Notes under the pieces: model-generated
Told to the model about the DNA's origin: nothing
The model's input: only the letters and a program-made list of their open reading frames with translations
The model's database searches: none
Made by a program: the position numbers and the translations under genes
In this document: positions 1,114 to 33,794 of the stretch, piece by piece
Numbering within the stretch: the first letter of the stretch is position 1
How the letters are laid out: the number at the start of each line of letters is the position of its first letter
Source: Haloferax gibbonsii ATCC 33959
GTDB taxonomy: Archaea > Halobacteriota > Halobacteria > Halobacteriales > Haloferacaceae
Length of the DNA stretch: 64,000 nt
Assembly: GCF_000336775.1 (NCBI RefSeq)
Contig: NZ_AOLJ01000011.1
Location: 450,366 to 514,365, forward strand
Direction: 5' to 3'

Positions 1114-1187
1114 GCCGCCTTAGCTCAGACTGGGAGAGCACTCGACTGAAGATCGAGCTGTCCCCGGTTCAAATCCGGGAGGCGGCA
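1114..1187 (+). tRNA. tRNA-Phe (GAA)
   Basis: The acceptor stem gccgcct (1114-1120) pairs with aggcggc (1180-1186) and the discriminator base is a. The anticodon stem ctcga/tcgag frames the loop ctgaaga with anticodon GAA at 1148-1150. D-arm gctc...gagc and T-arm cccgg-ttcaaat-ccggg are complete. No CCA is encoded. A T-rich ggttttttcg upstream may be the TATA box. Its 3' tail is repeated several times downstream. Confidence 0.97.
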
Positions 1188-1453
1188 TATTCTGAGATTC
1201 TGAGCGGAGCGAAGAATCGAAGAAACGACGCCGGACTGATTTGAACCCAAGAAGTCGAACGGAGTTAGTCTTCTTTCGGTTCAAATCCGGGAGGCGGCAT
1301 ATTCCTGCGAACTACCGAGGGAGTGGAGCGACCGAGCCGTGAGCAGTGGAGATGCGACTCGACCGGATTTGAACCAGCGAGCAAATCGAAGATTTGCGAG
1401 TGAGGTCCAAATCCGGGAGGCGACCCTTCTCAGACTGAGTTCAAATCCGGGAG
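1165..1453 (+). repeat. cluster of tRNA-Phe tail copies forming T-arm stem-loops
   Basis: The last part of tRNA-Phe plus five flanking bases (1165-1192) is repeated perfectly over 28 bases at 1277-1304. A third copy at 1404-1422 has one mismatch, and a fourth (1439-1453) covers only the T-arm. Inverted copies of the T-arm lie at 1238-1247 and 1363-1375. They pair with the direct copies at 1278-1287 and 1404-1416. Each pair encloses an inner stem: aagaag/cttctt in the first, and gcaaatc-GAA-gatttgc (1381-1397) in the second. None of the copies has an anticodon arm, so they are not tRNA genes. A related element follows tRNA-Ser in this window. Confidence 0.85.
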
Positions 1454-6613: not shown

Positions 6614-7441
6614 ATGACGGTGAACACACTCCACCGGCCGACGCACCGCGACGCCCTCGTCCACCTCGAAGCCGCCTTCGAACGCGGCGACATGGTGACC
6701 GTGTTCGGCCGGTGCACGGTCGACTACGACGGCCGCGCGACGAGCGAACTCGGCCCCGGCGACCGGCTCGTCGTCCTGAAGCCGGACGGCTCGATTCTGG
6801 TCCACACCGACGAGAAGCGGACGCCCGTCAACTGGCAGCCGCCGGGGTGTACCCACTCCGCGAGCGTCCGCGACGGCCGGCTTCGAGTCCGGAGCACGCG
6901 CACGAGCCCCGACGAGCGACTCGACGTGCACTTCGAGCGCGTCGAGCAGTGTTCGGCCTACGCCGTGAACGACCGCAGCGACCTCGAACTGGTCGGCAGC
7001 GAGGAGGACCTGCGGCAGCACATCCTCTCGGACCCCGACATCCTCGAACCGGGCTTCGAGCCGCTCGAGACCGAGCGGCAGAGCGACGCGGGCGCAATCG
7101 ACATCTTCGGCGAGGACGCCGACGGCGTCCCGGTCGTCGTGGAGTTGAAGCGCCGGCGCGTCGGCCCCTCGGCGGCGAGTCAGCTCCGGCGGTACGTGGA
7201 CGCGCTCCACCGCGAGTTCGGCGACGACGAGCCGGTTCGCGGCGTCCTCGTCGCTCCCTCGGTGACCGAGCGAGCGGCGGACATGCTCGACCGCGAGGGA
7301 CTGGAGTTCGTCGCGCTCGACCCCGAGACGGGCGCACCGCCGGTCGAGGAGGACGACGGCGAAACCGACGGGTCGGACGGGAACGGGGAGAGGGACGGAG
7401 CGGAAGAAGACGGCGATGACACCGACGGCGACGGCGACTAA
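6614..7441 (+). CDS. nucS: endonuclease NucS (mismatch endonuclease)
   Basis: NucS/EndoMS cleaves both strands at mismatches or branched DNA and works with the PCNA clamp. The 275-residue sequence has the N-terminal dimerisation barrel (VFGRCTVDYDGRATSELGPGDRLVVLKPDGS and VNWQPPG) and a C-terminal RecB-like nuclease. Its active-site residues are visible: Asp163 in GAIDIFG, Glu177 and Lys179 in VVELKRRRVGPSAASQLRRYVD. A highly acidic tail of about 35 residues follows. The stop codon abuts the stop of the convergent amidotransferase with no bases between. The start at 6614 gives the usual length. Confidence 0.96.
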   Translation: MTVNTLHRPTHRDALVHLEAAFERGDMVTVFGRCTVDYDGRATSELGPGDRLVVLKPDGSILVHTDEKRTPVNWQPPGCTHSASVRDGRLRVRSTRTSPDERLDVHFERVEQCSAYAVNDRSDLELVGSEEDLRQHILSDPDILEPGFEPLETERQSDAGAIDIFGEDADGVPVVVELKRRRVGPSAASQLRRYVDALHREFGDDEPVRGVLVAPSVTERAADMLDREGLEFVALDPETGAPPVEEDDGETDGSDGNGERDGAEEDGDDTDGDGD

Positions 7442-33288: not shown

Positions 33289-33369
33289 GCCAGGATGGCC
33301 GAGCGGTAAGGCGCACGCCTGGAAAGCGTGTTCCCTCTGGGATCGGGGGTTCAAATCCCTCTCCTGGCG
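33289..33369 (+). tRNA. tRNA-Ser (GGA)
   Basis: The acceptor stem gccagga (33289-33295) pairs with tcctggc (33362-33368), and the discriminator is g. The anticodon stem cacgc/gcgtg frames ctggaaa with GGA at 33321-33323. A long variable arm (ttccctctgggatc) marks a class II tRNA, as expected for Ser. The T-arm ggggg-ttcaaat-ccctc is complete, and CCA is not encoded. Confidence 0.97.
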
Positions 33370-33445
33370 CTTCTTCCGAACTCAACTCACGTAGCAGCGC
33401 GTCTCGTCGCGCTGCGGGCGGCGAGTTCGGGAGAACGCCGCCGGA

Positions 33446-33557
33446 GGATTTGAACCAAGGAGCGAAGCGAACAGAGTGAGCAATGTGCGACACGAAGTGT
33501 CGCAGTGAGACGAACGGCGGAGCCGCGAGTCGTGAGCGACTGAGGTTCAAATCCCTC
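33446..33557 (+). repeat. T-arm stem-loop element after tRNA-Ser
   Basis: An inverted T-arm copy, ggatttgaacc (33446-33456), and a direct one, ggttcaaatcc (33544-33554), are perfect 11-bp inverted repeats 87 bases apart. The 14 bases from 33544 are identical to the tail of tRNA-Ser (33348-33361). Between them is an inner stem, gcgacac-GAA-gtgtcgc (33487-33503), followed by agtgag. The element behind tRNA-Phe has the same outer arms, a GAA-loop stem and gagtgag. Confidence 0.85.
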
Positions 33558-33794
33558 ACCTTCGCATCCGGTGCACATAGCTTCTCCCGCAATCGCCGGC
33601 CGGCGAGAACCGTCGCCGGAGTCTATGGCCCCACTCGCCAAGGACCACTTACGTCGAAACTGGCAGGGCACCCCCAGTTCGACGCGACCCGAGGCACTAC
33701 CACAGACCCAACCTACGGTACCACCACAGAAGCGACCGTATCAACTGTTCGGACAAAACATTCATCCCCATGGGATACGATACCATGATTGACA
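33558..33794. other. AT-richer gap after the tRNA-Ser element
   Basis: No gene is seen. The stretch has lower GC than the surroundings, with many acc/aca repeats near 33700-33790, and leads to a short acidic protein gene. Confidence 0.45.

Follow-up and report, generated by a model that had tools for sequence, protein, structure and literature searches.

The window analysed here, a stretch of 64,000 nucleotides from Haloferax gibbonsii ATCC 33959, holds a tRNA-Phe gene whose 3' end returns, in direct and in inverted orientation, in the DNA behind it, and the locus raises the question of what kind of sequence carries the end of a tRNA gene as its own ends, and whether it acts as DNA or as RNA. 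A sequence-only reading of the window had described an exact 28-base repeat of the tRNA-Phe tail, two weaker tail copies, two reverse T-arms and, inside the reverse/direct pairs, the stems aagaag/cttctt and gcaaatc-GAA-gatttgc. All of these are present in the sequence (Table 1), the inner stems lying at 1249-1254/1270-1275 in the first unit and at 1381-1397 in the second. The inverted T-arm of the second unit is kept at 13/13 nt, and the weaker copy behind it reaches 71% identity to the tRNA-Phe 28-mer over positions 1403-1430. The same reading had overlooked the hairpin that directly follows the tRNA, a further instance of the structure behind tRNA-Ser, and the spread of such units across the genome and the class.

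Table 1. Features of the repeat units behind the tRNA-Phe and tRNA-Ser genes; coordinates are positions in the window.
Feature	Position	Strand	Remarks
tRNA-Phe (GAA), host gene with copied tail	1114..1187	+	copied part begins at about G53/T54
HP1 of unit 1, hairpin abutting the tRNA end (variant D, our label)	1188..1225	+	folding; other Haloferax have this variant at Phe loci
HP2 of unit 1: inverted T-arm 1238-1247, inner stem 1249-1275, T-arm copy 1278-1290	1229..1296	+	sequence comparison and folding
Exact 28-nt copy of tRNA-Phe tail 1165-1192	1277..1304	+	
HP1 of unit 2 (variant A, degenerate in the window)	1298..1354	+	better kept at other Phe loci
HP2 of unit 2: inverted T-arm 1363-1375, core CAGC-GA-[GCAAATC GAA GATTTGC]-GA-GTGAG, tail copy 1404-1422	1360..1422	+	
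Third tail copy, truncated, 15 nt exact	1439..1453	+	
tRNA-Ser (GGA) with second instance of the structure	33289..33370	+	
HP1 behind tRNA-Ser	33370..33425	+	fold equalled by 5/200 shuffles
HP2 behind tRNA-Ser: inverted GGATTTGAAC 33446-33455, direct tail copy 33544-33561 (17/18 nt)	33446..33561	+	repeat finder itself gave no inverted pair here

Comparison of loci by eye gives the order of a unit as the tRNA 3' end, a first hairpin (HP1) that begins at or near that end, a short link and a second hairpin (HP2). HP2 is composed of the 5' strand of the T-stem, an inverted T-loop of the ATTTGAA type, an inner stem, TTCAAAT, the 3' strand of the T-stem and the 3' strand of the acceptor; the direct tail copy runs from G53/T54 to about the tRNA 3' end. 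Units measure about 90-150 bp, are non-coding, and occur alone or in short arrays. Folding was assessed with RNA and with DNA parameters against 200 dinucleotide shuffles each, and both HP2 hairpins of the tRNA-Phe array beat every shuffle: unit 1 (1229-1296) reached -27.3 as RNA (z -3.3) and -15.9 as DNA (z -3.7), unit 2 (1360-1420) -30.4 (z -6.3) and -15.8 (z -5.5). The HP1 of unit 1 was equalled by 8/200 shuffles as DNA and 2/200 as RNA, and that of unit 2 (1300-1352) folded no better than shuffles. When the window was searched with the Rfam 15 covariance models, the only matches at gathering score were the two tRNAs, the units matching no Rfam family. In the surroundings of the tRNA-Phe array, Pfam integrase models matched none of the 10 ORFs between 318 and 8404. 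A gene for a NucS-type endonuclease (Pfam NucS_N and NucS_C) lies at 6614-7441, 5 kb from the array.

The window stretch 1277-1422 has an 88% homologue behind the other tRNA-Phe gene of the genome, 2 kb upstream, and weaker matches elsewhere in it, including behind Thr, Ala, Tyr, Ser and Pro tRNAs. The sequence-only reading had suggested a search behind all tRNA genes in Haloferax genomes. In the assembly, of 4.06 Mb in 30 contigs, we scored an exact stretch of at least 12 nt from each tRNA's own last 24 nt within 300 nt of the gene; 7 of the 52 distinct tRNAs, with N within 300 nt downstream, were dropped because N-joined overlapping contig ends duplicate sequence. Own-tail copies lie downstream of 22/45 tRNA genes and upstream of 5/45, every one of the latter being a tandem tRNA gene, and inverted own-tail stretches of at least 10 nt number 18 downstream and 0 upstream of the same 45 genes. 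Such N joins (L009 around 9958; L003, L006, L016, L047 and L078) also give pairs of Thr-ggt, Tyr and Arg-tct genes a falsely tandem look. Behind tRNA-Arg-tct (L047) stands an array of a different type, made of tandem 25-nt acceptor-tail repeats (CGTCGCGCTC and TTTTGATGTCTGCTC).

The same asymmetry is found across the class Halobacteria. In the 47 of 59 class genomes that made up the tRNA-Phe sample, direct tail copies follow the gene in 22/47 and precede it in 0/47, inverted copies follow it in 16/47 and precede it in none, and both kinds are found together in 11/47. Among archaea of the same phylum outside the class, two Halobacteria loci having been left out, an own-tail copy of 12 nt was found behind 0/30 tRNAs. 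It should be noted that the unbiased counts are those from the 45 tRNAs of one genome and from tRNA-Phe in 47 genomes; the collection of 202-216 tRNAs used for the chance control, arm mismatches, acceptor stems, loops, arm scores, HP1 and array polarity is biased, many of its loci having been fetched by the HP2 pattern. Chance and local duplication are ruled out by the controls (18 entries with N were dropped from one of the chance controls), by the counts in the window's genome and by those for tRNA-Phe in the class. Confinement of the copies to a single locus, which the earlier reading had named as telling against an element class, is likewise not what we observe, as units stand behind different tRNAs, in several genera and families.

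Two conserved cores reveal how such units are built. The class-1 core with its T-loop (CAGCGAGC...GCGAGTGAG...TTCAAATC) occurs in 36/148 genomes of the family and 9/28 genera, while the reversed pattern occurs in 0/148; it was also found in 51 stretches of named genomes, all haloarchaeal by title (Haloferax, Halogeometricum, Halobellus, Halorubrum, Halonotius, Halohasta, Halomarina, Halobium and a Haloferacaceae MAG). The distinct matches number 64, and 62 of them follow a same-strand tRNA at a distance of 32-461 nt; of the two exceptions, one begins at a contig edge (L103) and the other, which has a Pro-type tail, lies 28 kb from its tRNA-Pro (L115). When the T-loop was not required, all nine matches in the window's genome were again behind tRNAs and on their strand. 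The second core, GGTTCTGCGAGCGANGCGAGNAGGTTCTC, gave 19 matches in 17/242 genomes, 12/74 genera and four families, and 18 of these lie 56-291 nt behind a same-strand tRNA (Phe 8, Val 3, Leu 2, and Pro, Met, Glu, Ser and Arg 1 each), flanked by the inverted T-arm and the tail of that very tRNA, in some cases with a few changes. The nineteenth (L255) is 20.5 kb behind a same-strand tRNA-Phe. One core thus sits between the own arms of different tRNAs, which bears out the earlier proposal of an element class with tRNA T-arms as its ends. To our knowledge there is no precedent for a repeat family with a shared core whose ends are always the tail of the preceding gene.

In virus, phage and plasmid collections the units are scarce. 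Viral contigs scanned with the class-1 pattern and phage collections yielded no match, and neither did a plasmid collection searched with the window stretch. The core query matched 17 plasmid records, one of them real (Natronorubrum, E 9e-11) and 16, mostly Sinorhizobium, at E 0.5 and hence at chance level; a weak match of the core to a Natronococcus plasmid has no tRNA within 2 kb. In Natronorubrum bangense a unit behind tRNA-Gly carries the Gly tail and a core with one change, and is followed by a second, decayed unit. Two tRNA-Gly genes and genes for the ribosomal proteins L2, L23, L4 and L3 are located on the 828-kb Natronorubrum replicon L283 (NZ_CP031306.1), whose record describes it as a plasmid.

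The correspondence between a unit and its host gene is quantitative. Inverted arms score on average 18.7 against the own tail and 15.0 against swapped tRNA tails, with the own tail higher in 178/209 units. Two T-stem variants of tRNA-Phe exist, and the tail copy matches the variant of its gene in 39/40 cases (33 C/C, 6 G/G, 1 G/C), which indicates that tails are recopied from the gene or kept like it; at two loci (L212 and L213) the direct copies follow the variant and the inverted arm does not. The left edge of the copied tail, measured in 172/209 units, is sharp at G53: 66, 60, 26, 14 and 3 units match the gene for 0, 1, 2, 3 and 4 nt further leftward, and the remaining 3/172, which match for 40 nt, are tandem duplications. 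There is more variation at the right edge: in 27 of the 172 units the exact match stops at the tRNA end, in 44 it runs past this point and in 101 it falls short. An inverted arm was found in 184/209 units and, at the threshold used, none in the other 25.

Related loci differ in the units that they carry. At the two Phe loci, compared across 15 Haloferax genomes, several HP1 types and inner cores are combined in many ways. Paralogous genes differ next to the tRNA by whole units, as in tRNA-Ala-ggc with one versus two, and at Phe loci of paralogues and sister species the tRNA-proximal unit is present in some and absent in others. Among 49 arrays with at least two called copies, the first was better kept in 25, the second in 10, and 14 were ties (p 0.017); in some Val and Tyr rows the copy caller also picks inverted arms, so that some of the 10 reversals are caller errors. 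The anatomy and distribution of the units are firmly established.

Whether the hairpins matter as RNA or as DNA can be approached through their mismatches, with the caveat that neither mismatch nor variant counts are independent, since units are related by descent. Under a scoring that treats all mismatches alike, the outer arms of the 184 units with an inverted arm show 13 G·U and 23 A·C, as against 20 G·U and 0 A·C in tRNA acceptor stems (92 distinct sequences, stems of at least 5 pairs). An excess of G·U like that of acceptor stems would be expected of arms selected as RNA, and the arms therefore give no support for action at the RNA level, including the joint processing with the tRNA by tRNase Z that the sequence-only reading had put forward. 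The inner stems, counted by hand on the cores, have 5 G·U and 2 A·C, and they vary on both sides, with 17 distinct tips and several pair types at positions 1 to 4. Setting aside the 83/209 regions without a perfect 4-bp stem, 61 of 126 inner loops are triloops, 26 of them GNA, and none of the 15 tetraloops is GNRA or UNCG; GA flanks the inner stem on both sides in 51/126. GNA triloops and tandem GA form very stable DNA hairpins.

We tentatively favour the reading that the units are DNA cassettes, gained at the tRNA end and recombining, which make up a non-coding family in the class Halobacteria whose members almost always follow tRNA genes. Units would then act at the DNA level, with the tRNA tail (T54 to 3' end) as the probable site of recombination or insertion. 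A new unit would be gained beside the tRNA with duplication of the tail, by analogy with a leader-end CRISPR repeat or an integron cassette, and a folded HP2 strand would show the same double-stranded T-arm sequence as the target. Candidate drivers are template switching combined with recombination, or tyrosine recombinases working in trans, of the kind for which these tails are existing targets. This interpretation gains support because own-tail copies lie downstream only (the upstream ones being tandem tRNAs) and start at a sharp edge, because a shared core is combined with tRNA-specific arms and a shared T-stem variant, because units are present or absent next to the tRNA in paralogues and sister species with the first copy better kept, and because arm mismatches lack a G·U bias and GNRA and UNCG loops are absent. 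It is weakened because unit gain and precise loss between tails look alike and because the polarity is modest, with 10 of 35 untied arrays reversed. The lean of the inner stems to G·U, the shared descent of the units, the 25 units lacking an inverted arm, the two loci whose inverted arms do not follow the T-stem variant, and the near-empty virus, phage and plasmid searches detract from it further, and the same-strand location, the changes on both sides of inner stems and the presence behind the same tRNA in several genera would equally fit a transcribed structure.

That alternative, possible if on balance unlikely, sees HP1 and HP2 as hairpins of the pre-tRNA trailer that would steer 3' processing, termination or turnover or give rise to a small RNA, the T-arm with its tail copy perhaps mimicking a substrate of tRNase Z or RNase P. 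Units do lie on the tRNA strand and close behind the tRNA, HP2 is predicted to fold very stably as RNA, inner stems change on both sides, and several genera share units behind the same tRNA, yet arm mismatches free of wobble bias, the lack of GNRA or UNCG among 126 loops, the patchy presence behind 22/47 Phe genes and the 101/172 exact tail matches that end short of the tRNA end all sit poorly with a trailer under selection as RNA. A tRNA-splicing reading may also be conceived, the insert lying at 53/54, a known intron position in archaeal tRNAs.

We consider it unlikely that the units are a mutational by-product without function or mobility, in which replication forks stalled at tRNA genes would switch templates and leave inverted and direct tail copies that gene conversion then keeps tRNA-like. 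Two template switches would indeed yield inverted and direct copies of the own tail, and the symmetric mismatch spectrum, the turnover of units between species and the way in which tail copies track their tRNA agree with such an origin. What it leaves unexplained is that one 29-nt core stands behind ten tRNA species in four families, that copies have a fixed start at G53, that HP1-like pairing (score at least 16) accompanies 65/147 loci with a tail copy and 5/52 without one in the biased collection, and that nothing comparable appeared in the 30 tRNAs outside Halobacteria. Doubtful, too, is a more elaborate form of the DNA-cassette reading, according to which tRNA genes would be the att platforms of a gene-less, integron-like system: the coding strand of HP2 would fold as single-stranded DNA and mimic the T-arm duplex, and a recombinase would insert it at T54 with duplication of the tail, each tRNA growing its own array.

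Integrative elements that do use tRNA tails allow a direct comparison with the units. Two elements at tRNA-Phe, in each of which a Phage_integrase gene adjoins or overlaps attR, duplicate gene positions 44-74, with the copy about 20 kb away, and 42-74, about 10 kb away (genome G057), and in neither is there an HP1 or HP2 in front of attR. In G057 the tail units sit behind attR. Similarly, in Haloferax G049 an insertion of ~28 kb (L115; L321:11475 to L320:19600) separates tRNA-Pro from its unit and terminates in an imperfect Pro tail copy, directly behind which HP1 and then HP2 follow, the HP1 being identical to that behind tRNA-Pro of the window's genome. The location of the units behind the distant tail copy in both cases implies that the insertion entered between the tRNA and its units. 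Two loci (L263/L241 and L243), of which one has an integrase element, share the 12-mer GATTTGAACCGG, an inverted piece of the T-arm about 75 nt behind tRNA-Phe, and the inverted arm of the units may derive from att arms of this kind. The 10-kb element of G057 (L317 149-10040) encodes a tyrosine recombinase and an HNH endonuclease protein, shows a weak match, below the cut-off, to the AbiJ N-terminal domain, and is possibly a defence island.

That the units are residues left between attL and attR once a virus or plasmid had integrated at the tRNA and decayed is very improbable, for although integrase elements use these tails, att arms may have supplied the inverted arm and two units lie far from a tRNA (L115 at 28 kb and L255 at 20.5 kb, the latter of which might form part of an element's far end), true att copies begin at gene position 42-44 with no HP2 in front, HP1 and HP2 are outside the insertion in G057 and L115, and units share a common size and core. 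The remnant of repeated tRNA-targeted integration envisaged by the sequence-only reading is not supported in its simple form, since the duplications of 31-33 nt made by the two integrase elements start at position 42-44 and have no HP2 before the distant copy; the distant unit L255 may be an exception. An att scar is also disfavoured by the duplicated interval, from 42/44 to 74 in the two intact elements against a start at G53 in the 172 units measured. A role as decoy attB is unlikely, as the sequence ahead of G53, which is duplicated in the two intact elements, is missing from the tail copies.

Among known systems, integron attC sites are the closest working analogue, and from each known family tested the units differ in at least one feature. 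Like the units, integron cassettes with a folded attC form arrays, and folding of one strand into an imperfect hairpin presents the recombinase with a double-stranded site; extrahelical single bases in the stem and the addition of a new member beside a fixed target site are further likenesses. The units have the corresponding hairpin with paired outer arms in the 184/209 cases with an inverted arm. Of 203 units, 21 carry an extra C at one outer-stem step in the 5' arm and 11 carry it in the 3' arm; none has it in both arms. Unlike integrons, they are without cassette genes, no integrase lies beside the window's array (Pfam, 10 ORFs), many independent genes serve as targets, a single common core site is replaced by outer arms that match the tRNA, and recombination of the units is conjectural.

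CRISPR arrays resemble the units in having roughly regular, half-palindromic repeats behind a fixed, leader-like gene, with the proximal repeat tending to be best kept. Unlike CRISPR, the repeat of the units is the tail of the host tRNA and differs between arrays, and the spacers are related hairpins rather than unique foreign DNA, the window stretch having no phage or plasmid match. REP/BIME palindromes and MITEs are also short, non-coding, palindromic, modular and present at many genomic sites, but they have constant ends and dispersed locations, whereas the units lie almost only behind tRNAs with ends customised to each gene; a general haloarchaeal REP palindrome is ruled out, as the core in the window's genome is behind tRNAs only (9/9). 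Haloarchaeal t-elements and pre-tRNA trailers are likewise foldable, tRNA-derived sequences near a stable RNA gene, but of the tRNA the units contain no more than the T-arm half and the 3' strand of the acceptor, and they sit behind tRNAs. The tail duplications of attL/attR, also direct copies of the 3' end of a tRNA gene, differ from the units in starting at 42-44 instead of G53/T54, whereas unit copies lie mostly within a few hundred nt and come with an inverted arm and a conserved core. No description of such units was found in the open-licence literature, subscription papers being outside the scope of the search, and the portions available of PMC8371274, PMC7714728, PMC3432209, PMC3119063, PMC2841640, PMC12558985 and PMC4946936 contain no account of them.

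If the DNA-cassette reading is correct, haloarchaea would possess a recombination system for which the ends of tRNAs are landing sites, and in these archaea it might involve folded single strands; if the units instead act as RNA, about half of the tRNA genes in the one Haloferax genome counted would be followed by RNA structures of a class not seen before. In either case, tail duplications behind tRNAs are by themselves no mark of integrated viruses.

Some units depart from the common plan. One hairpin sequence (GCACACCCGATCGC...GCGATCGGTGTG, with TACTATAG at its end) interrupts HP2 in two genomes (L255/L322 and L272) and resembles a mobile element from a different family. At four further loci (L221, L281, L267 and L317:10040-10180) the copy also takes in the anticodon arm, tRNA nt about 25-53; two hairpins come next and then the T54-76 tail, an arrangement that resembles a 3' half tRNA with hairpins inserted into its T-loop.
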